A stretch of 64,000 bases of DNA. It comes from an uncultured Coriobacteriia bacterium (lineage in GTDB: Bacteria; Actinomycetota; Coriobacteriia; Coriobacteriales; QAMH01). The stretch spans positions 1 through 64,000 of the forward strand of contig CAOKAE010000001.1 of the NCBI GenBank assembly GCA_948466335.1, in the 5' to 3' direction. The translations under genes were made by a program, and so were the position numbers. The notes under the pieces are model-generated. The model saw only the letters and a list, made by a program, of their open reading frames with translations, had not been told where the DNA came from and did not search any database. This document shows, piece after piece, positions 36,510-64,000 of this stretch (positions are counted from its first letter, which is position 1; the number at the start of each line of letters is the position of its first letter).

Positions 36510-36542
36510 AATGAGACAAATACCCTGTGTATTTGTCTCATT
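36510..36542. repeat. Family-A hairpin, copy 4 (single, second half decayed)
   Basis: AATGAGACAAATA (36510-36522) pairs perfectly with TATTTGTCTCATT (36530-36542). A decayed second half (GCGAGACA, TGTCGC) follows within 35 bases. It lies between the divergent purA and the PIN-domain toxin module. Confidence 0.85.
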
Positions 36543-50371: not shown

Positions 50372-51129
50372 AGGGAAAGTCCTCCGTCGATGCTGATTAC
50401 CTGGCCGGTGATGTAGGATGCCGCGGGGCTTGCCAGGAAGGCCACGAGGTCGGCCACGTCCGCGGCCTCGCCCAGGCGGCCAAGGCCGATCTGGGACGTG
50501 ATGGCTTCCTTCTGCTGGTCGTTCAGGGCGTCGGTCATGTCGGTCGCGATGAAACCGGGGGCAACGGCGTTGACCCTGATGCTGCGACGCGCGAGCTCCT
50601 TGGCAAGCGACTTGGTGAGGCCGATGACGCCGGCCTTGGAGGCCGCGTAGTTGGCCTGGCCCGCGTTGCCCGCAATGCCGACGATGCTGCTCATGTTGAC
50701 GATCGCGCCACTGCGCTGCTTCATCATGTACTTGGCCGCGGCCTTGCAGCAGTTGAAGGTGCCCTTGAGGTTCACGTCGATGACGGCGTCGAAGTCGTCC
50801 TCGCCCATGCGGGCGATGAGGCCGTCACGCGTGATGCCGGCGTTGTTGACCAGCACGTCGATAGAGCCGAGCTCGGCTACCGTCTCGTCCACGAGCGCCT
50901 TGGCGGCATCGGCATCAGCGACGTTTGCCACGACGACCAGCGTGCGCACGCCGTAATCGTTGGCGATTTGCTCGGCAGCCTGGGTGGTGCGCTCGAAGCT
51001 CGATTCGCTCGAGCAGTTGAGGCACACGTCATGGCCACTTGCGGCGAGCGCCTGCGCACAGGCAAGGCCTATGCCACGACCCGAGCCGGTGACGAGAGCG
51101 ACGGGAGCGCCCTGATCGGTGTTACTCAT
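50368..51129 (-). CDS. fabG: 3-oxoacyl-ACP reductase
   Basis: 253 aa short-chain dehydrogenase: VALVTGSGRGIGLACAQAL, VLVNNAGITRDGL, SSIVGIAGNAGQANYAASKAG with the Tyr-x3-Lys pair, and the C-terminal ITGQVISIDGG. It reduces 3-oxoacyl-ACP with NADPH. It overlaps fabD by eight bases and fabF by four. Confidence 0.96.
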   Translation of the reverse strand: MSNTDQGAPVALVTGSGRGIGLACAQALAASGHDVCLNCSSESSFERTTQAAEQIANDYGVRTLVVVANVADADAAKALVDETVAELGSIDVLVNNAGITRDGLIARMGEDDFDAVIDVNLKGTFNCCKAAAKYMMKQRSGAIVNMSSIVGIAGNAGQANYAASKAGVIGLTKSLAKELARRSIRVNAVAPGFIATDMTDALNDQQKEAITSQIGLGRLGEAADVADLVAFLASPAASYITGQVISIDGGLSL

Positions 51130-53514: not shown

Positions 53515-54588
53515 ATGGGATGCAAGATCGTCGGACATGGTAAGGCCCTGCCGGAGCTCATCGTGAGCAATGACGACATGGCGAAGATCGTCGACACCAG
53601 CGACGAGTGGATCGTCGAGCGCACGGGCATCCACAACCGCCGCATCGCCCTGGAAGAAACGACCACGAGCCTTGGCACGGATGCGGCGCGCAACGCCCTT
53701 GCCGACGCTGGCCTCGCTGCCGATGATATCGACCTCATCGTCTGCATGACCATCTCGGCTGACGCCGTGGTGCCTTCCCAGGCCGCCCTCATCAAGATGC
53801 AACTGGGCGCAAGCAACGCCGTCGCCTTTGACCTGAACGCCGCGTGCACGGGATGCATCTACGGCATGGACGTGGCCTCCACGATGATCGAGGCCTCGGT
53901 TGCTAGCGAGGACGGAAGCGGCATCGGGCACAGGCGCAACGCGATGCGCCGCGCGCTCGTCGTGGGTGCCGAGCGCCTCTCGCGCATCACCGACTGGACC
54001 GACCGCGCCACCTGCGTGCTCTTTGGCGACGGCGCCGGTGCCATCGTGCTCGAGTGGGACGACAACGCGCCGGGTATCCTGGCGAGCTTCCTGAAGAACA
54101 CCGACGACGAGGCGCTGTGCCTGACCGTCGACGCGAATCACGACCTGCGTCCCTTCCCCTTTGGCGATGGCGTGCGCATGGAAAGCCTGGGCGAGGTCAT
54201 GGACATCCGCAACGACGACGGCGAATTCTGGCCGCAACTGCCCTACATCCGCATGCACGGCCAGCGCGTCTTCAAGTTTGCCACGGCCGCCATCGTGGAA
54301 GCAGGCCGTGAGGTGTGCGAGCGCGCGGGCATCAAACTCGAGGATGTTGCCTGCGTCATCCCCCACCAGGCCAACGACCGCATCATCCGCTTCGCGGCCA
54401 AGAAGCTCGGCGTGCCCTACGAGCGCTGGCAGGTCTCCATTGGCGAAACCGGCAACACGAGCGCATCGAGTGTGCTCATGGCGCTGCATGATGCCTACGA
54501 GTCCGGGCGCATCCGCCCGGGCGACTTCGTGATGTGCGTGGGCTTTGGCGGCGGACTCACGAGCGGCGCGCTTGTGTTCGAGGCGTAG
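53515..54588 (+). CDS. fabH: 3-oxoacyl-ACP synthase III
   Basis: 357 aa, a little longer than usual (about 320) because of inserts near 130-145 and 190-235. Catalytic Cys in LNAACTGCIYGMD, His in IPHQANDRII and Asn in GETGNTSASSVLMAL. It starts fatty-acid synthesis by joining acetyl-CoA (or a branched acyl-CoA) to malonyl-ACP. GGAG precedes the ATG. Its last 12 codons recur at 62510-62548 beyond the low-GC island. Confidence 0.95.
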   Translation: MGCKIVGHGKALPELIVSNDDMAKIVDTSDEWIVERTGIHNRRIALEETTTSLGTDAARNALADAGLAADDIDLIVCMTISADAVVPSQAALIKMQLGASNAVAFDLNAACTGCIYGMDVASTMIEASVASEDGSGIGHRRNAMRRALVVGAERLSRITDWTDRATCVLFGDGAGAIVLEWDDNAPGILASFLKNTDDEALCLTVDANHDLRPFPFGDGVRMESLGEVMDIRNDDGEFWPQLPYIRMHGQRVFKFATAAIVEAGREVCERAGIKLEDVACVIPHQANDRIIRFAAKKLGVPYERWQVSIGETGNTSASSVLMALHDAYESGRIRPGDFVMCVGFGGGLTSGALVFEA

Positions 54589-54590
54589 AG
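54551..54590. repeat. Left copy of a 40-bp direct repeat flanking the island (fabH 3' end)
   Basis: Matches 62511-62550 at 36 of 40 positions, in the same orientation. It covers the last 12 codons and stop of fabH. Candidate attachment-site or recombination boundary. Confidence 0.85.
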
Positions 54591-54784
54591 GCGCTGGTTT
54601 TGTCACTCACTCCAGGAGCCGTAACCAGCATGGGCGGAAGACTACGGCCGCATTGGCTGCACTTCCTCTCTCCCTTCTTGACAAGAAGGCCGCAATCAGG
54701 ACATCTCAATGGCCTTAAGGACATGTCATAGAGACCATCCGTAATCTTGCCGCATTTATTGCAAAGATTGCAGGTAAAGCACAT
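54557..54784 (-). CDS. Small zinc-ribbon protein
   Basis: 75 aa from the ATG at 54784 (GGAGG four bases upstream). Three Cys-pair groups: CFTCNLCNKCGK, CPDCGLLVKKG and CSQCGRSLPPM, a rubredoxin/zinc-ribbon pattern. Its 3' 32 bases overlap the convergent fabH end, and the last residues have no domain character, so the gene may have been extended by fusion to the fabH end. Function unknown. Confidence 0.65.
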   Translation of the reverse strand: MCFTCNLCNKCGKITDGLYDMSLRPLRCPDCGLLVKKGERKCSQCGRSLPPMLVTAPGVSDKTSASTPRTQARRS

Positions 54785-54821
54785 CGAGCCTCCTCGCGAG
54801 AATGCCACACGTCGAATGATA

Positions 54822-54853
54822 AGGGACCGCTTCCCAAGCGGGATGCGGTCCCT
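54822..54853 (-). terminator. Hairpin after the first MFS gene
   Basis: AGGGACCGC (54822-54830) pairs with GCGGTCCCT (54845-54853). It lies 34 bases after the MFS stop on the minus strand. There is only a short T stretch, so a moderate terminator. Confidence 0.65.
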
Positions 54854-54886
54854 ACTCTTGAATCCGAATGATTAGAAAAGGATGCC

Positions 54887-56113
54887 CTAATCCGTGTCTC
54901 CTTTCCCAACATCCTTCTTGCCCCTGATAATCAGATTCTTGAAGGGCAGGAAAAGCATAACGACTGCCGCCACCAAGAACACGATACCGCTTACCATCAA
55001 GGGCCCAGCAGGGCCAAGCGAGGGCATCGTCTCCTGAACAAACGACAGGTAGTAAGCTCCCAGAAAGGAGCCCAGGTTCATCGCCGCCATCATCAATCCG
55101 TTTGCGACAGGAATCTTCGAGGGCGGCGAAGCATTTCCTGCCGCGTTCTGGGCCGCCGTAAACAACCCGATGTGGGCGATACCAAGAATGGTGATGCCGA
55201 AGCTGAAAACAATGACATTATCGGAGGAATACATAATTAAAAGCCCTGCGCCACCCACAAACGCGAGAGCCGAGAAAACCTTGTTCCTGAATACGAGAAT
55301 AAGCACAGCATAAATCGCGCCAGCAATAGTGCCGCCAACTGTGAAGAGCGCTGACACGACACCGGCCACGCTCGCATCACCCATGCCGCGTATATCGAGC
55401 AGTGTCGAGCAGAGGAAAACCGCGACGATATCGAGTATCAACATAATCGTGGCAAAGAGGAAATAACCCCATACGGCAGGAGGGAGCTTTTCCTTCTTTG
55501 CATCGGACGAGACGGCAGCTGTTGTATCCTCGACGGGTTTTACTCCTTTGAGTTCTGGCAGGAAGACTATAACCAGAAGCCAGGGAATGAAGGCGACCAG
55601 ATAGCCAAGGAACGTATAGTTCCACGCAATGCTCGCAAGATACCCTCCCGCAAGCTGATACAGAATGCCCGATCCGAAGAAGATGAGGTTTCCCACGCCA
55701 AGCAACGTCGCCCGCTGCTTCCCCTTGTAGAGCGCGATAATCATTGCGCCGCCCAAGGGGCTCACCATGCCATCACCAATGCCGACGACAATGCGTGAGA
55801 TGATGATTGGCCAATACTCGGTGAGACCCGGGAAAAAGAATGGAGACAGACCACCAAACATGGCCAGGGCGACTCCAACAATTCCCATGAAACGATAGCC
55901 GACGCGGTTAACGAGAATGCCCGCAATAATGCTTACGGGCACGACGACAACTCCGGTGATAGTGTTGGCCAACAGGATTGTCGTCATCGACGTGGAAGGA
56001 AACGCGTTGGACAGCGTATTCAGGGCAGGCGTGAGTATCGCGAAATCACATAGGGTGCAATAGAGCGCGAAGATGCCGATGAGCGCTATTTTTGAATTGG
56101 GTGCTACTCTCAT
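54887..56113 (-). CDS. MFS transporter (island copy 1)
   Basis: 408 aa with 12 predicted membrane helices. The loop 2-3 motif is NRVGYRFMGIVGVALAMFGG, loop 8-9 is weak, and the central cytoplasmic loop is charged (GVKPVEDTTAAVSSDAKKEK). It is clearly paralogous to the next MFS gene: both have TTILLANTITGVV, GNLIFFGSG/GNLVFFGGG and NGLMMAAMNLG/NGMMMAAMNLG. It probably imports the substrate, or exports the product, of the island oxidoreductase. 48 bases separate the two MFS genes. Confidence 0.88.
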   Translation of the reverse strand: MRVAPNSKIALIGIFALYCTLCDFAILTPALNTLSNAFPSTSMTTILLANTITGVVVVPVSIIAGILVNRVGYRFMGIVGVALAMFGGLSPFFFPGLTEYWPIIISRIVVGIGDGMVSPLGGAMIIALYKGKQRATLLGVGNLIFFGSGILYQLAGGYLASIAWNYTFLGYLVAFIPWLLVIVFLPELKGVKPVEDTTAAVSSDAKKEKLPPAVWGYFLFATIMLILDIVAVFLCSTLLDIRGMGDASVAGVVSALFTVGGTIAGAIYAVLILVFRNKVFSALAFVGGAGLLIMYSSDNVIVFSFGITILGIAHIGLFTAAQNAAGNASPPSKIPVANGLMMAAMNLGSFLGAYYLSFVQETMPSLGPAGPLMVSGIVFLVAAVVMLFLPFKNLIIRGKKDVGKGDTD

Positions 56114-56161
56114 AAACCATCCCTCCCTTGCTGTTCTACGAGACGCGCCGGTCGCCTTTTT

Positions 56162-57442
56162 CTAGACCTCGGAATTCTCGGAAGATCCGGAGGCGCTTGC
56201 GGCGGGAAGCTGCTTTGGCTTGATGCAACCGGGCACGAAGAAGAACAGGACAGCGCACACCAGCAGAAGAACGCCACTCGCCAGCACAGGGGCACCGATG
56301 CCCATCTGCGGGAACGTTACGGCGGCAAATTCCATGTAGTAGCTCGCGAAGAACACGCCGAGGTTCATCGCGGCCATCATCATGCCATTTGTGACACCGA
56401 CACGTACGGCCGGTGATGCCTTGCCTCCAGCCTCCTGGGCGGCCGTGAAGACTCCGATATGGCCGATACCCAGGAGAATCATGCCAAGGCCGAACACGAT
56501 TGCCGAAGTGGCGTTAAAGATAATGAACATGGAGACCGCGCTGCACAGGGTGAATACGGCAAACACCTTGCGCTTGGTCGCAGCGTAAACGACGGCAAAT
56601 ATCGCGCCTGCTATCATGCCGCCACCCGTGAACAGGGACGATACAACACCAGCTACGCCGGCATCTCCCATGCCGCCCTCGGCCAGCATGGTTGAGCAAA
56701 GGAACACCGCGGGCATATCAAACATGATGACGACGAAGGCTATGGCGACATAGCCAAAGACGCTCGCGGGCAGTGGGGGCTTCGGTGCGCTTGCATCAAC
56801 CTTGGGCTCTTCCTTCTTGGCGTCCTGTACGGCAACGCCCTTCTTAGCCCTCAACTTTGCCGGTTCTGGCAAGAAGACGGCTACGAGGATGAAGGGGATG
56901 ACGGTGAGGAAATATGCCAAGAAATGATAGTTCCAGCCGATATTCGCCAATCCACCCGAAAGCATCTGGTAAATCATGCCACCACCGAAGAACACCAGAT
57001 TGCCGATGCCAAGATACAATGCGCGTTTCTTGCCCGTAAAGAGCTCAATGACGAGCGCGCCTGCCAAAGGATTAACCATGCCGAGGCCAATGCCCACAAG
57101 CACACGAGAAGCGATGACTGGCTCATAGCTTGTCACATCGCCCATGAAGAAGGGGAACGCGCCACCAAGCGTGGCGATGACTAGGCCCAGGATAGCCCAT
57201 TTCCGGTAGCCCCACTTGACCCACATGCCAACCAAGATACTGACGGGAATGCTGACCACGCCCGTAATGGTGTTGGCCAGAAGAATCGTAGTGAGGGGCG
57301 TACCTTCAAAATGCACCGCAAGACTGTTGATGGCAGGAGTGATTATTCCGAATGCGCATTGGGTAAAGTAAAGCGCAAAAATGCCAATGAGCGCTAGAAC
57401 CATGCCCTTTTTGCTCAACAGAGTTTCAGAGTTCTCTGTCAT
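56162..57442 (-). CDS. MFS transporter (island copy 2)
   Basis: 426 aa with 12 membrane helices (MVLALIGIFALYFTQCAFGI, VVSIPVSILVGMWVKWGYRK). Arose by duplication together with copy 1, since they match along their whole length. A conserved Lys-rich central loop separates the halves (AKKGVAVQDAKKEEPKVDAS). GGAAG precedes the ATG. A terminator hairpin separates it from the FKBP gene, so the two transporters may form their own transcript or rely on read-through. Confidence 0.88.
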   Translation of the reverse strand: MTENSETLLSKKGMVLALIGIFALYFTQCAFGIITPAINSLAVHFEGTPLTTILLANTITGVVSIPVSILVGMWVKWGYRKWAILGLVIATLGGAFPFFMGDVTSYEPVIASRVLVGIGLGMVNPLAGALVIELFTGKKRALYLGIGNLVFFGGGMIYQMLSGGLANIGWNYHFLAYFLTVIPFILVAVFLPEPAKLRAKKGVAVQDAKKEEPKVDASAPKPPLPASVFGYVAIAFVVIMFDMPAVFLCSTMLAEGGMGDAGVAGVVSSLFTGGGMIAGAIFAVVYAATKRKVFAVFTLCSAVSMFIIFNATSAIVFGLGMILLGIGHIGVFTAAQEAGGKASPAVRVGVTNGMMMAAMNLGVFFASYYMEFAAVTFPQMGIGAPVLASGVLLLVCAVLFFFVPGCIKPKQLPAASASGSSENSEV

Positions 57443-57466
57443 TTGACTTCCTTTCTCTTAAAACCG

Positions 57467-57500
57467 TGGCAGCCACGCGCCTTTTCGGCGGTGGCTGCCA
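57467..57500 (-). terminator. Terminator between the FKBP and MFS genes
   Basis: On the minus strand, TGGCAGCCAC pairs with GTGGCTGCCA over a 14-base loop and CGGTTTTAAG follows. It lies 10 bases past the FKBP stop, ending or attenuating the oxidoreductase transcript before the transporter genes. Confidence 0.85.
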
Positions 57501-57509
57501 TAGGTGAAC

Positions 57510-57950
57510 TTATTCCGCAGACTCTCCCTCAACGCTGAGAAGCTCTATTTCATAGATCAAGGTCTTTCCTGCTAACGCGTGGTTAAAATCCAGAGAAACG
57601 ATGCCGTCTTCTACGCCAAGGACCTTTACGATAGCGGGACGCTGGGTTTTGGGGCTCGTAAGGGAGATCATCTCCCCTACCGGAAATTCTCTGCCACCTC
57701 CGAAGACGTAGGCCGGTATCCTTTGCACGGCGTCTTCTTGATAGAAACCGTAAGCGTCTTCAGGAGGTATGGTGACGGTAATCGTATCACCGACCTCCAT
57801 AGCCCCTACTGCCTTTTCAAATCCTGGAATCACCGAAGATGTTCCCATCACGAAAGTGAAGGCTTCCTCCGGCTTGCACTCATCGAAGAGGCTTCCGTCT
57901 TCGAGATAGCCCCTGTAGGCAACGCTTACTTTCTGGCCGTTCCTTTTCAT
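57510..57950 (-). CDS. FKBP-type peptidyl-prolyl isomerase (SlyD-like core)
   Basis: 146 aa. FKBP/IF pattern of SlyD-type proteins: VSVAYRGYLEDGSLFDE, VIPGFEKAVGAMEVGD, VTIPPEDAYGFYQEDAVQRI, and SLDFNHALAGKTLIYEIELL. The His/Cys-rich tail of SlyD is absent. Lying 43 bases after the ferredoxin gene in an oxidoreductase operon, it may help fold or mature the molybdenum enzyme; SlyD has known roles in metalloenzyme assembly. Cytoplasmic. Confidence 0.88.
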   Translation of the reverse strand: MKRNGQKVSVAYRGYLEDGSLFDECKPEEAFTFVMGTSSVIPGFEKAVGAMEVGDTITVTIPPEDAYGFYQEDAVQRIPAYVFGGGREFPVGEMISLTSPKTQRPAIVKVLGVEDGIVSLDFNHALAGKTLIYEIELLSVEGESAE

Positions 57951-57993
57951 GAAGCCTCCCTCTCCTCTGAAACTTCACCATGCCGCAGGATGC

Positions 57994-58326
57994 CTAGCAA
58001 GGAACGAACAGCGCCTGCTTCGGCTTCCTGTCAAGGTCTGCAACGAGCTCGTCGACAGGACCGAACTTCAGCACCTGGGCTAGGCAATGATGCACGCATG
58101 TGGGCTTTCTGCCCTCCGCAATGCGGTCGGCGCAAAGATCGCACAGGTCTGTGGGGACGGCGATCTTATTCCAGTTCCACACCTTTTCCGATATCTGCCA
58201 AGGGCCCTCATCCATAACCTTGATGCCCCATTGGCCCACGGGGATACCGTGTTCTTCCTTACAGGCGACCTCGCAAGACTGGCAGCCAGTGCAGAATTCA
58301 TAATCAATCAAAAGGCCGTTCCTCAT
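57994..58326 (-). CDS. Small [4Fe-4S] electron-transfer subunit
   Basis: 110 aa. First cluster motif CTGCQSCEVAC, second group CDLC with CVHHC. This is a shortened form of the DmsB/NrfC family (four-cluster, about 200 aa). It should carry electrons to or from the molybdenum subunit whose start codon lies upstream; the gap is zero bases. No membrane anchor gene is present, so the electron donor is probably soluble. Cytoplasmic (no signal). Confidence 0.9.
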   Translation of the reverse strand: MRNGLLIDYEFCTGCQSCEVACKEEHGIPVGQWGIKVMDEGPWQISEKVWNWNKIAVPTDLCDLCADRIAEGRKPTCVHHCLAQVLKFGPVDELVADLDRKPKQALFVPC

Positions 58327-60672
58327 TTACGCCACCTCCTCTGCATCCTTAACGCCGGAGTTCTGGATATTGAACTTCTCCCAGATTTCCTCCATGTCCG
58401 TATCCCAATTGCCATCCACCTTCTTGACGCTGCAGATAGCGCATTTGAAGGGGGCGCCAAAACCGAGCTTTCCAACATGGAAGTGGGGGATCAGACTGTT
58501 GATGTTGGAACGCCAGACATCGTAGAGTACCGGCTCTTCGGCATCTTTCTCGGGGAACCAGAAGCCATGCTGCGCATGAACGACGCCCTTCTTCACGATG
58601 GGAGTCACCTTCGCCTTCATCACGATCTTGCCGAACTGGTTCTCCAGCTCAACCCAATCGCCATCTTTGATGCCGAGGCCCTTCGCGTCTTCGGTATTGA
58701 TCTCGACCAGCGGGTCGGGATTCATCTCGCGAAGGTAGGGTACCTGCTTGCCCTCAGAGTGGAAATAACAATAGGTCCTGGCGCCGGTCGTCAAAACGAA
58801 CGGATACTCCTCCATCAGCTCCGGGGTGGAAACGGGGCTGTATTGTGGTTCCTCGTAATAAGGCAACGGATCCTCGCCGAATTTCTGGAACATGGTGGAA
58901 TAGAGCTCGACACGACCAGTGGGCGTGTTGAATCCAGGGGTCATGTCCGGTCGCAGGTGACCATTCTCGTACTTCCGATAGCTCACATTTCGTTGGCGCG
59001 TCACTTCCTTCTTGAGCTCTTCGACCTTGACCGTGTTTCCAAGCCTAAAGTCCTCAACGAATTCGTCGAAGTTGTCATACATGCTGAAGGCCTCTGGCAT
59101 GCATCGACGACCGAGGTCGTACATGAATTCGAAGTCGGAATGTGTCTCGCCAGCATCTACCGCCTTGTTCACGGAACCGATTACGTTAGGTGAGCCGGCG
59201 TAATGATTCAACACCACCGCCTGGTGCTCGGGATAGGCGGCAAGGGGAACAAAAACGTCAGCGCAGGCCATGGCGGTCGGTGTCATCCACACATCCGTGC
59301 AGAAGTTGAAATCAAGCTTGGCAATCGCATCATGCCAGCGCTTGGGTTGTGCCGCACATGTACCAGCGAGCAGGTTTGTGGAGCTGATGTAGGCCATCTT
59401 GATGGGATAGGGTTTCCCGGTCTCCATGGCCTCGAGCATCATATCTGCCTGGGCATTCAGAATGATGCCCACGTAAGCCGGATACTCTTGGAGGCCGATG
59501 ATCTTGTACTGCAGCTCGGGACCGAGCTCTGCCCAGCCATAACCGCCCACCACGGCCTCTGCAATGCCGTCATGAGCATCTACGAGAATCTGACCGCCGG
59601 GAATATCGATGTTTCCGGTGATTGCCATGAGCGCCAGGATCGAATGGCCCATCTGAACGCCGTTGGCTTTCTGGTCTGTAGCCAAACCCCAAAGGATGGT
59701 CGCGTTCTTCGCGTTGGCATACATTCTCGCAGCCTTGTAGATATCCTCTACATCGAGGCCGCAAATCTCAGCGGCCTTCTCGGGCGGCATCTCTGCCACG
59801 CGCTCGGCCAGCTCATCGAAGCCATAGCAGAAGCGGTCCACGAAATCATGATCGTACAAATCCTCTGAAATGATGATGTGGAGCATTGCCATGGCCAAAG
59901 CGGTATCAGTGCCCGGCCTTAACTGCAGATGACAAGCTGCGCGGGTGGCAAGCCAATTCACCCTAGGATCAATGGATATCAGCTTGGTGCCTCGCTTCAT
60001 GACGTCAATCAGAGCATGACCGAAGAGACCATCCGGATTGGACGGCAGCGGCTCCTTGCCCCATACGATGGCGACTTCGGGAACCTCATACATCGGATCA
60101 TCATAACGACCTGGCAGACCACCGGCATAGTCCATCTCCGGATAAGGTGCTCCAAGAACATAGCTGGTGCCAGCAACGCGAGGTGCATAGCACGCATAGC
60201 CGCTCTGGGTGTAGCATGCGTTAGGTGTACCAAGCATACGGTGGGCATAGGAACCGCACATGGGGCCGCCCTGCCGCCCCGTTCCACCAAGAACGGTTAT
60301 GGCCTCGGCACCATATTCCTTTTTGACCTCTGCCACCTTTTCTGCAATCAGATCAAGCGCTTCGTTGTAGGTAATCCGCTCCCACTTGTCCTTACCGCGG
60401 TCTTTGGGATCCCGCTTCATGGGATAGAGAACACGGCTCGGGTTATACATGGTGTCGGTCAATGCGAGGCAACGGACGCAGAGCCTTCCCTGGGTAATGG
60501 GATGATTCTCGTCGCCTTCGACCTTTTCGACAATGCCGTCTTTGTTCACGTACAATTTCACGCCGCATCCTACTGGATGACAGCCCGGGGGCGAATATGC
60601 GGCAGTACGAGTAACGGTGTATTCCCCGTCCTCATATCGCCACGGCTTGCCAATGTCGTCCTTAAACTCCAT
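58327..60672 (-). CDS. Molybdopterin-dependent oxidoreductase, catalytic subunit
   Basis: 781 aa from the ATG at 60672 (GGAGGAG upstream). No Tat signal, so probably cytoplasmic. The N-terminal cluster region has C31 (GCHPVGCG), C36, C65 and C68 rather than the usual Cys-x2-Cys-x3-Cys spacing. MGD-binding and DMSO-reductase-family segments run through AEAITVLGGTGRQGGPM, IVWGKEPLPSNPDGLFG, KLISIDPRVNWLATRA, GSVNKAVDAGE, VLTTGARTYCYFHSEG and the C-terminal GDWVELENQFGKI. A Cys at YACYAPR is a possible Mo ligand. In Eggerthellaceae, relatives reduce or dehydroxylate aromatic and other dietary compounds; the substrate here cannot be named. Confidence 0.92.
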   Translation of the reverse strand: MEFKDDIGKPWRYEDGEYTVTRTAAYSPPGCHPVGCGVKLYVNKDGIVEKVEGDENHPITQGRLCVRCLALTDTMYNPSRVLYPMKRDPKDRGKDKWERITYNEALDLIAEKVAEVKKEYGAEAITVLGGTGRQGGPMCGSYAHRMLGTPNACYTQSGYACYAPRVAGTSYVLGAPYPEMDYAGGLPGRYDDPMYEVPEVAIVWGKEPLPSNPDGLFGHALIDVMKRGTKLISIDPRVNWLATRAACHLQLRPGTDTALAMAMLHIIISEDLYDHDFVDRFCYGFDELAERVAEMPPEKAAEICGLDVEDIYKAARMYANAKNATILWGLATDQKANGVQMGHSILALMAITGNIDIPGGQILVDAHDGIAEAVVGGYGWAELGPELQYKIIGLQEYPAYVGIILNAQADMMLEAMETGKPYPIKMAYISSTNLLAGTCAAQPKRWHDAIAKLDFNFCTDVWMTPTAMACADVFVPLAAYPEHQAVVLNHYAGSPNVIGSVNKAVDAGETHSDFEFMYDLGRRCMPEAFSMYDNFDEFVEDFRLGNTVKVEELKKEVTRQRNVSYRKYENGHLRPDMTPGFNTPTGRVELYSTMFQKFGEDPLPYYEEPQYSPVSTPELMEEYPFVLTTGARTYCYFHSEGKQVPYLREMNPDPLVEINTEDAKGLGIKDGDWVELENQFGKIVMKAKVTPIVKKGVVHAQHGFWFPEKDAEEPVLYDVWRSNINSLIPHFHVGKLGFGAPFKCAICSVKKVDGNWDTDMEEIWEKFNIQNSGVKDAEEVA

Positions 60673-60706
60673 ACGCTCCTCCTTTTCGGTCTGACACGCA
60701 CTTTTC

Positions 60707-60724
60707 CTTGCATGGCCATGCAAG
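60707..60724. promoter_or_regulatory. Perfect 18-bp palindrome upstream of the molybdenum enzyme
   Basis: CTTGCATGG and CCATGCAAG join without a spacer, 35 bases upstream of the ATG at 60672. The position and symmetry fit an operator for the adjacent LuxR-type regulator. Confidence 0.6.
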
Positions 60725-60814
60725 GTCCTCAAGGGGGATTATGGGAAGCGAGGCCGCGCTTCGAAATCGTCTATGAAACTGAAATAGAGCCGTAGGTTGA
60801 TGGTGTGGTTGATT

Positions 60815-60831
60815 TCATACTGATGGTATGA
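60815..60831. promoter_or_regulatory. Second inverted repeat in the same control region
   Basis: TCATAC (60815-60820), five bases, GTATGA (60826-60831). It lies about 145 bases upstream of the oxidoreductase start. The 254-base gap between the regulator and the enzyme has no gene; this and the palindrome at 60707 are its only clear structures. Confidence 0.4.
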
Positions 60832-60926
60832 GCCCCTTATGGGCGCTTTTCACAGATTGGTTCGTTAGTTCACCCAAAGTGTTCAGCGCTGACAATCAAA
60901 GCAAGAGAAGGTCGCTTCTGTGATTA

Positions 60927-62378
60927 TCATCTCGGAATGCTTTCGGACACAGGCTGGCTCGACCTCAAAACCTGCATTCTTTCATCGACAAGGCTGATCA
61001 ACTCCTGCTGGGAATGTATCCCCAGCTTGCGATAGAGCATGTAAACGTGGCTTTTTACGGTAGAGGTGGAAACAACAAATTCCTCCGAGATAAATCGAAC
61101 GTCCCGCCCTTTCGCCAAAAGACCTAAAACCTCGGCCTGCCGAGGAGAGAGGCCAAATTCGCGCGACATCTCATCCATCATCATGTTCCAGCGCCCGCCT
61201 TCTTCAGTAGCTAGAGATACAGCAGGGCTCACGGTCTTTTCTTCTGGAAGCTCCGGAATAAATGGATAGAGGCTATTATCGAGCACTCTCGTCTGAAAAT
61301 AGCTAATGACAATCGCCGCTGCGCCACATATCCACGGCGCATTCGAAGGGCTTAAGGCACATATTCCCATAACCAGAATGCCCAGCATAACTCCTAATAC
61401 ATAGTATCCACTTTCACGCCCGTACATCCATACCGGAGATAGCTGCTCAAAACGAGTTGTCTCGGTCAGAGCAAGAAGCAATATCATCGCGTATGCAGTC
61501 ATAAACAGTGCGAAAAGGGAGAGCGAGAGCCATTGCCACTCCACAGGAACGCAAAGAATGCAGAAGACCTCTGCTATCAAGACTGGACCGATTGCCTTCT
61601 TCATCGAAGCGCTGTAGGGCGCTTCGGAGTGCCAGAGCAATAGTGCGGATATGATCCCTCCACAGGCGATAGCAATTCCGCAAAAAACAAGATTCGTGCC
61701 CACGCCAAATGGAGCCGGGAAGAATGGGGCAAACAACACAATGCCGAGCCCCATTCCCAACGAGAAAAGCGCGTAGAAATTACTCTCGCTTTCGCTATCC
61801 TTCATTATGGCTAGACAGTCTTCCCGCGACATAAACACTGAGCTGGAGAATGCAGATTTCCTTAGCAGCCACGCACAGACCAACGAGAATATCGTCGTGA
61901 GGCCGTAAACGACAAGCGCAATCCACTCATGAGGATAACGGGGCACAAGCATGTATAATCCCGCCACCACGATGGCAGCTGAGAACACGGCGATCCTTTC
62001 GTGCTGGGGAAGGCTGTCAAAAAAGGATAGCCAGAAAACTATAGCCCCGCTCATTGCCAGAGCTGCCCCGAGAATGGCCACAGGGGGAAGCGCAACCCAA
62101 CATCCAACAAAAAGCGCAAGCCCCATGACAACTGCCCCAATTAGAGTGCGAGTTCTCTTTCCGGGCTTTAGGTAATCATTGCAGCGAGCTGCGGCAAGAA
62201 AAATACAGGCGGCAAATAAAAGCAGCAGAGCAACCAGAAAATATGGGGACGTGCCGGTATCTGAAGTGCAGATTATCGTCAGCAGCTCGACCATCGACAC
62301 GGAAAAGAATAGGACTCCAAGGCATCCGTAGAGCATTAGCCATGCAGAAATGCCCTGGTCATTAGCAGTTTTACCCAT
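60927..62378 (-). CDS. LuxR-family regulator with polytopic membrane sensor
   Basis: 483 aa from the ATG at 62378 (GGTGG eight bases upstream; a GTG four codons earlier is possible). Residues 1-390 hold about 12 membrane helices with no other domain. Residues about 415-475 are a LuxR/GerE HTH (GLSPRQAEVLGLLAKGRDVR, STSTVKSHVYMLYRKLGIHS). This build is characteristic of Eggerthellaceae, where such genes neighbour substrate-specific molybdenum reductases. It should sense a ligand at the membrane and switch the operon next door. Confidence 0.93.
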   Translation of the reverse strand: MGKTANDQGISAWLMLYGCLGVLFFSVSMVELLTIICTSDTGTSPYFLVALLLLFAACIFLAAARCNDYLKPGKRTRTLIGAVVMGLALFVGCWVALPPVAILGAALAMSGAIVFWLSFFDSLPQHERIAVFSAAIVVAGLYMLVPRYPHEWIALVVYGLTTIFSLVCAWLLRKSAFSSSVFMSREDCLAIMKDSESESNFYALFSLGMGLGIVLFAPFFPAPFGVGTNLVFCGIAIACGGIISALLLWHSEAPYSASMKKAIGPVLIAEVFCILCVPVEWQWLSLSLFALFMTAYAMILLLALTETTRFEQLSPVWMYGRESGYYVLGVMLGILVMGICALSPSNAPWICGAAAIVISYFQTRVLDNSLYPFIPELPEEKTVSPAVSLATEEGGRWNMMMDEMSREFGLSPRQAEVLGLLAKGRDVRFISEEFVVSTSTVKSHVYMLYRKLGIHSQQELISLVDERMQVLRSSQPVSESIPR

Positions 62379-62509
62379 GATATCAACCACCGTTCTTCAT
62401 GGGAGCGTCTTGTGATTATGGAGTTGTAAGGACGACGGCCCTATTATCCAGGCTTCGTATATTTTTCGTCAACTTGATTCTCTGTGTAATCGGCTGCGAA
62501 TAATTTGCC

Positions 62510-62548
62510 GGCGAGCTCACGAGCGGCGCGCTCGTGTTCGAGGCGTAG
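62510..62548 (+). pseudogene. fabH: Orphan 3' end of fabH (12 codons plus stop)
   Basis: The sequence translates as GELTSGALVFEA then TAG, against GGLTSGALVFEA in intact fabH (54550-54588). It has core-genome GC in an AT-richer setting. No more of fabH is present upstream. It marks the right edge of the island, with 62511-62550 matching 54551-54590 at 36 of 40 bases. Confidence 0.8.
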
Positions 62549-62551
62549 GGG

Positions 62552-63736
62552 TTAAACGAAGAGAGGGATATCGCCCGCTAGGAAATCCTCGACCGGAGCT
62601 TCTGCCGACCCAACAACGATGCAATGGGTTTTGGGGTATTTGCTCGTAAAGGCATCAAAGCCGCCAACTCTCTTTATTCTGCCGCTCTTGACTTCGATGG
62701 CGGTTCGAGCAAGCCCATCTTGAATAACGAAGTCAACCTCTTGGTCTCCTTCACGCCACCAGAACACATCGAAATGCTCCTCGCGCTCACGTTTGAGCAG
62801 ATAGGCCCCAATTGCACTTTCGACTAAGTGCCCACGCAAATCGGGGTCTGTCAAAAGCTGCTCTCGGTTCCTGCCATAAGAGGCCACCATGAGCGAGGTG
62901 TCATGAGTTATAAGCCGAGGAGATGACGCTCTCGTTTTCAGAAGCTTCTCCGAGTATTTCTGAAGACCCGTCAAAAGCCCCGCATCAGAGAGAAGGGACA
63001 GATAGTGAGCTATTGTCGTCGCGTTACCCGCATCATCTAACTGCCCCATAATCTTGCGATACGAAATCTCCTGGCCCGAATAGGCCGACCCAAGCGTAAA
63101 CAATGCCTCCATAAGGGCAGGTTTGGTTATGCGATCGAGAGAAATGACATCCTTGAAAACGCTTGGCGCGATAATAGAATCCTGTACGTATTCAAGCCAT
63201 CGGTCGCGGTCATCTTTGAATCTCGCCGCACCGGGATAGCCCCCAAAGTACAAATAGTCGTCGATAGAGTATCCAAATGCCTCTGCACATTCGTGGTAAT
63301 ACCACTGCGGGCAGTGTATGAGCTCGAAACGCCCCGTAAGCCCCTCACGCATCCCCCTCTGTAGAAGCAAGGACGATGAACCTGTGAGCACAACCGTCAG
63401 GTCTATTCCCGTCCTTATATCCTCATCCCACAGACCCTTTACGATGGACGACCATTGAGAAATCAGCTGCACTTCATCGATTATGAGGAGTGCGCGTCCG
63501 TCGGTGGCAAGAAACCTAGCCTCCTGCCATTCGCGACGTAGCCAATCCTCTGAGTTCGCGCTGCCCTGCACTGCTTGGGCATAGTGCGACGGCATGGACG
63601 CGCCTGCCATGGCCTGACGCACGGCAGTTGTCTTGCCAGTCTGGCGTGGCCCGACGATGATTTGCATCAGGCCTTTAGGTTCGCTAATCCTCTTGGCTAT
63701 GGTGTTGGCTACATCGCGTCGATAGGAGGGAAGCAT
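62552..63736 (-). CDS. AAA ATPase with DUF4143 nuclease-like domain
   Basis: 394 aa. Walker A IVGPRQTGKTTAVRQ and Walker B GRALLIIDEVQL (AAA_14). The C-terminal DUF4143 part contains WWREGDQEVDFVI and TAIEVKSGRI, a PD-(D/E)xK nuclease-like signature. Such genes are common, often multicopy and horizontally moved; their role is unclear (proposed stress or toxin-related). AAGGAG lies upstream of the ATG. It lies four bases beyond the fabH remnant. Confidence 0.88.
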   Translation of the reverse strand: MLPSYRRDVANTIAKRISEPKGLMQIIVGPRQTGKTTAVRQAMAGASMPSHYAQAVQGSANSEDWLRREWQEARFLATDGRALLIIDEVQLISQWSSIVKGLWDEDIRTGIDLTVVLTGSSSLLLQRGMREGLTGRFELIHCPQWYYHECAEAFGYSIDDYLYFGGYPGAARFKDDRDRWLEYVQDSIIAPSVFKDVISLDRITKPALMEALFTLGSAYSGQEISYRKIMGQLDDAGNATTIAHYLSLLSDAGLLTGLQKYSEKLLKTRASSPRLITHDTSLMVASYGRNREQLLTDPDLRGHLVESAIGAYLLKREREEHFDVFWWREGDQEVDFVIQDGLARTAIEVKSGRIKRVGGFDAFTSKYPKTHCIVVGSAEAPVEDFLAGDIPLFV

Positions 63737-63793
63737 CGCGGAAACTCCTTAGCGGATTGTTCGCGTTGAATAGAATTGTACCAGCCATTGAAC

Positions 63794-63820
63794 AAAAATG
63801 TTCAGTGACTGAACATTTTT
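63794..63820. promoter_or_regulatory. Operator-like palindrome upstream of the DUF4143 ATPase
   Basis: AAAAATGTTCAG, three bases, CTGAACATTTTT: perfect 12-bp arms. On the minus strand it overlaps where a -35 would lie for a TACAAT -10 box about 20 bases downstream. A further TTGAACA half site abuts it. Confidence 0.6.
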
Positions 63821-63937
63821 CTCGGATTTTCGGAAGCACGAGATCCGGATTTTCGGAAATGCGGAGAATAGGACGCTATTCGCCGCATAATTTGCGAGGA
63901 ATAGGTGCGTTCTTTGTCCTAGCGCCCTTCTTTTCTT

Positions 63938-63955
63938 GTATCACAATTGTGATAC
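63938..63955. promoter_or_regulatory. Perfect 18-bp palindrome before the gene at the right edge
   Basis: GTATCACAATTGTGATAC, nine bases before the ATG at 63965. Typical position for an autorepressor or antitoxin operator. The stretch 63737-63937 holds no gene. Confidence 0.65.
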
Positions 63956-63964
63956 GTTTGGCGT

Positions 63965-64000
63965 ATGTCGCAGAGCAAGCGCATGAGAGAGGCCGCCATG
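63965..64000 (+). CDS. Start of an unidentified gene (right edge)
   Basis: Only 12 codons are inside the window (MSQSKRMREAAM). The palindrome just upstream and the basic N-terminus would fit a small antitoxin or regulator, but nothing more can be said. Confidence 0.4.
   Translation, partial: MSQSKRMREAAM

Follow-up and report, generated by a model that had tools for sequence, protein, structure and literature searches.

The region downstream of fabH in this uncultured Coriobacteriia bacterium raises the question of how the end of a housekeeping gene came to be present twice, once on the intact gene and once as an orphan tail some 8 kb further on, with a block of minus-strand genes in between. 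The window analysed covers bases 1 to 64,000 of a contig 317,922 bases long, which belongs to a 35-contig genome of 1.9 Mb with 97% completeness. The preferred reading, given a probability of about 0.5, is that a foreign cassette of about 8 kb was inserted behind fabH by site-specific recombination at the fabH 3' end, and that the two 48-bp tails are its boundaries.

The essential fatty-acid gene fabH (beta-ketoacyl-ACP synthase III, 53515..54588, plus strand), the proposed insertion target, is an intact ORF with a 96% identical orthologue in the sister species, and the order of the fab cluster is kept in relatives. Its 3' end (54544..54591, plus strand), the left boundary of the island, is repeated at 62504..62551 (plus strand), the right boundary, with 43 of 48 bases (90%) identical and a longest exact run of 17 nt. 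The first-pass annotation had reported 36 of 40 bases shared between 54551-54590 and 62511-62550, which is exact; the repeat merely extends further, to 48 bases. A search of the genome with the fabH tail returned the orphan with an E value of 3.4e-12 and a next best match of 0.25. Elsewhere in 109 kb the best further match to the 48-mer was 28/48, and of 300 48-mers drawn at random from nearby sequence none scored above 38. The orphan encodes a near-complete FabH C-terminal end. Its description as an orphan held in a shuffle alignment, where the sequence 5' of it had no clear similarity to fabH (29 of 500 shuffles scored equally high). Among 399 genomes of the order, no second fabH tail was found outside the present genome. 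A perfect 8+3+8 dyad at 62518-62536 in the orphan tail (CACGAGCGGCGCGCTCGTG, composed of CACGAGCG GCG CGCTCGTG) has one mismatch in the fabH copy; it carries no weight as evidence.

Only one relative was found to share this fabH locus, the sister species G002 (identity about 95%; the locus is also on CATLBX010000002.1, L015). Its colinearity with the window, at 95.5%, begins at 50886 and stops exactly at 54591, which is 3 nt past the fabH stop and the last base of the first repeat copy. Between 54591 and 63994 it matches only in short promoter and hairpin stretches, and homology resumes at 63994, the start of a shared DUF3427 helicase gene. None of the island genes is present in G002, and no second fabH tail was found there. 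In place of the island it carries 3.2 kb with Fic/nucleotidyltransferase, HepT-like and DUF4238 genes, none of which occurs in the window. A second relative, G001, gave no fabH or fabK matches, and the locus is probably absent from that assembly. The first-pass annotation had pointed to Eggerthellaceae/Slackia genomes as relatives; by co-occurrence of loci, the host family (f1) differs from that of Hugonella massiliensis (f3), within the same order.

The sequences flanking the two tails bear directly on where the break lies. Directly 3' of the fabH stop, G002 has GGGACTGACGAGAAG and the orphan GGGTTAAACGAAGAG, which agree at about 10 of 20 positions in register and share the pattern GGGG....ACGA..AG. 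The orphan's right flank, on the side of the DUF4143 gene, is TAGGGGTTAAACG. The flank of the intact fabH is AGGCGCTGG, unrelated to the native flank of G002. A hairpin flanked by tracts of A and T (TGTTCAGYGACTGAACA, AACAAAAATGTTCAGYGACTGAACATTTTT; 63787..63821, no strand assigned) follows the fabH stop by 33 nt in G002 but is 9.2 kb from fabH here. Across 7 genomes of the family, and with one mismatch allowed, this hairpin occurred at this locus only; its exact form, TGTTCAGTSACTGAACA, is present in 1 of 399 genomes of the order, the present one. Both the G002 copy and the copy described here fold stably. Together, the break at the repeat, the native-like flank of the orphan and the displaced hairpin indicate that fabH was separated from its native downstream flank by an insertion, an event which on this comparison is very probable.

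G002 thus reads as a near-empty site, and an imperfect one, since the DUF4143 gene that follows the orphan tail is also missing there. The empty site predicted beforehand, with fabH directly next to DUF4143, was therefore not found. The DUF4143 gene may have arrived at this site before the cassette, or it may have been lost from G002.

The cassette is foreign in composition and codon usage, unlike both the host core and the host's own paralogues. Its G+C content is 51-56% against 65-67% in the fab cluster, and GC at third codon positions is 0.55-0.69 in island genes against 0.84-0.86. For the molybdopterin oxidoreductase (MopB) of the island this value is 0.66, compared with 0.86-0.90 for the host's own MopB paralogues, and the codon distance is 0.25 against 0.09-0.14. 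The earlier claim of a low-GC island is upheld as regards G+C content. It does not hold for the right-hand limit: low G+C runs past the second repeat, across the genes for the DUF4143 ATPase, the DUF3427 helicase and AlbA, as far as about 68 kb. The AT-rich region is therefore only partly enclosed by the repeats.

Integrative elements and genomic islands, for example of the SGI1 type, insert into the 3' ends of genes and restore the gene. The present locus resembles SGI1-type islands in its block of foreign composition and in a short direct repeat with a distal orphan gene end; the target gene is intact and its 3' end is repeated directly at both boundaries, the arrangement by which islands at gene 3' ends are recognised. 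The two tails also resemble attL and attR: they share a 33-bp core, the orphan's left arm has diverged, and the right flanks are unrelated. Mismatches number 1 in 33 in the core, 3 in 12 in the left arm and 1 in 3 on the right, a distribution that att sites differing in their arms would show; the difference in divergence between arm and core is borderline (Fisher p 0.052). Under the preferred reading, the fabH 3' end would act as attB for the incoming cassette, with crossover within the near-identical core. At attL the fabH reading frame would stay intact, and attR would be the orphan tail with its diverged, element-side arm. The integrase would then have been lost, or would have acted in trans. 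Taken by itself, this site-specific mechanism with fabH as attB has about an even chance of being right.

Differences from SGI1-type islands are the target, here fabH, the lack of an integrase and the lack of recurrence. There is no integrase in the island, as the first-pass annotation had stated. In the 97%-complete genome only two PF00589 proteins were found, both XerC/XerD-like, with TrmFO-like and peptidase-T-like ORFs as neighbours; there was no match to large serine recombinases (PF07508). Inspection by eye of ORF lists from relatives revealed no apparent integrase next to fabH. The break in G002, the native-like orphan flank and the displaced hairpin support the proposed insertion at the end of fabH; its further part, an integrase-bearing element that restored fabH with its own copy, is possible, only Xer-type enzymes having been found in the genome. 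XerCD/dif-type insertion was considered and set aside, the core being unlike dif when compared by eye. A tRNA target was likewise rejected: the sole ARAGORN call, a tRNA-Trp at 53593-53684 (minus strand), lies antisense inside fabH and was taken as a false positive.

No att core was shared with other elements or hosts among the 399 genomes or viral contigs, the latter searched with strict and degenerate fabH-tail patterns. With no second tail in those genomes and no viral contig carrying the site, these searches gave no sign of recurrence at fabH. Megablast gave no match pointing to a phage or plasmid origin, and nothing relevant on fabH as attB was found in the open-access literature. The broader idea, that the fabH 3' end is an undescribed integration target in a Coriobacteriia lineage where integrase-less metabolic islands are mobilised in trans, by a turnover spot of defence genes, is improbable.

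The strongest alternative, possible though tentative, is insertion anchored by homology without an integrase. This could be homology-facilitated illegitimate recombination, in which incoming DNA with a fabH 3' end recombines in fabH and joins inside the resident fabH tail, or a single crossover of a circle carrying part of fabH. In either case the scar would be identical, with part of the gene end duplicated, and the fact that no integrase was found speaks for this alternative. In E. coli conjugation most such recombinants carry a partial duplication of the target-gene end, of 109-950 bp in sequenced clones (PMC3240628), and orphan gene arrays in Vibrio have been explained by a homology-anchored/illegitimate model (PMC5361080). 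The present locus shares with those integrations a partially duplicated end of a conserved gene around acquired genes, with no need for an integrase. The two tails also share three states that differ from G002, which suggests that both derive from one species or from very near ones, as homology anchoring would have it. Against it, the duplication of about 48 bp is very short, below the lengths in the E. coli experiments, and similarity in the orphan's left arm tapers off, with no sharp start (TGCG.....TTTG.CGGCG..CTCACG). Moreover, divergence from G002 is not clearly raised near the fabH end, so no donor tract is visible.

Loss from G002 of an island ancestral to the genus, with an old orphan tail, is a poor candidate. 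It draws on there being one informative sister genome only, G001 probably lacking the locus, and on a locus that clearly turns over, with sequence like that upstream of Fic present here in the absence of a Fic gene. However, the native flank of G002 runs straight from fabH, resembles the right flank of the orphan and still has the hairpin close to fabH; the composition of the cassette is foreign; and a deletion between repeats would still imply a prior insertion. It is very improbable that the orphan is the remnant of an ancient fabH paralogue or of a segmental duplication, an option named earlier as one that would undo the insertion: the near-complete C-terminal end speaks for it, but there is no clear upstream fabH similarity, divergence is abruptly higher beyond 33 bp, and relatives have no second tail. 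An assembly or binning artefact, suggested by the many fragmented drafts in the family and by the difference in composition between island and fab cluster, is just as hard to credit, given that the longest exact match, 17 nt, is below the length at which k-mer misjoins typically arise and that the 318 kb contig is colinear with G002 on both sides.

The insert of about 8 kb contains six clear genes and one small zinc-ribbon ORF between the copies, all on the minus strand, in agreement with the seven genes counted earlier. The zinc-ribbon ORF (54557..54784, 75 aa), with weak, sub-threshold Zn-ribbon Pfam matches, overlaps the fabH tail at its 3' end. It is followed on the map by an inverted repeat after the first transporter gene (54822..54853, minus strand; -29.3 kcal/mol, z -6.9), which is likely the terminator of the island operon. 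Two MFS transporters (54887..56113, PF07690, E 1.4e-32; 56162..57442, PF07690, E 4.7e-29) and an FKBP-type peptidyl-prolyl isomerase (57510..57950, PF00254, E 5.8e-19) come next; in most relatives examined, an FKBP gene is near MopB/Fer4 pairs. A 4Fe-4S ferredoxin-like partner (57994..58326, PF13247/PF12797) adjoins the molybdopterin oxidoreductase (58327..60675, 782 aa; PF00384, PF01568, PF04879), which is probably of the acetylene-hydratase-like/catechol-dehydroxylase type. The best PDB match of the latter, 2e7z, is acetylene hydratase, the nearest solved structure, and no Tat signal is evident in the protein. The last gene (60927..62390) encodes a LuxR-type regulator whose N-terminal domain is long and hydrophobic, with PF00196 at residues 414-467 of 487; its transmembrane domain, judged by eye from the sequence, is putatively of the 12-TM type.

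Catechol dehydroxylases of Coriobacteriia occur with 4Fe-4S proteins, MFS importers and LuxR regulators of 10-12 transmembrane helices (PMC9734109, PMC12771579). The cargo has the gene set of these clusters, namely a MopB protein (in both cases lacking an evident signal peptide), a 4Fe-4S partner, MFS transporters and a LuxR regulator with a long hydrophobic N-terminus. It differs in the FKBP gene of its operon and in being AT-richer than the host's own paralogues. These shared companion genes suggest that the cargo is likely a cytoplasmic dehydroxylase or reductase unit of the catechol-dehydroxylase type, for an aromatic substrate. Searches with MopB and LuxR found no close donor of the cassette: the best MopB match reached 71% within the host genome and 68% outside it, and no close relative of the LuxR protein was present among the 399 genomes. 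On the island's own contig, the region G000:C1:222000-241000 (L150) holds at least four MopB and 4Fe-4S paralogues of host-like G+C content, at about 222-233 kb. One MopB match there (C1:230905-233172) lies within an open frame listed with one TAG.

The comparison gives good support for a metabolic island with clear limits that was acquired horizontally at the 3' end of fabH, a known kind of event at an unusual target. A dehydroxylase or respiratory reductase unit of the gut type can, on this evidence, enter as one block at a housekeeping gene and leave that gene undamaged. Such clusters are numerous in Coriobacteriia, and the island offers a concrete, testable boundary for the study of their spread.

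The gene to the right of the insert, a DUF4143 ATPase (62552..63736, minus strand; PADLOC candidate PDC-S01), abuts the orphan tail directly and lies outside the repeat-bounded block. Type IV restriction models match the helicase, and SoFic matches the G002 Fic protein; like PDC-S01, these are matches to a defence model library, and the functions are putative. From this gene content, the fabH neighbourhood appears to be a turnover spot with defence-type genes. The cargo of G002 (L014:3704-6874; Fic-nucleotidyltransferase, HepT-like, DUF4238) corresponds to window positions 63737-63993, and the Fic-upstream-like sequence of the window (GGAAATGCGG..TATTCGCCGCAT) is at about 63855-63900. Further along the contig, a single AlbA_2/HATPase_c_4 gene (G000:C1:67323-69150; L009:15324-17151) is absent from G002, where 3 bases separate the flanking matches; relative to G002 it appears to have been inserted cleanly. 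A dispersed 33-bp repeat is present at 36510-36542 of the window and at C1:102795-102827, and is identical in G002 at L014:14067-14099 and L015:5543-5575.
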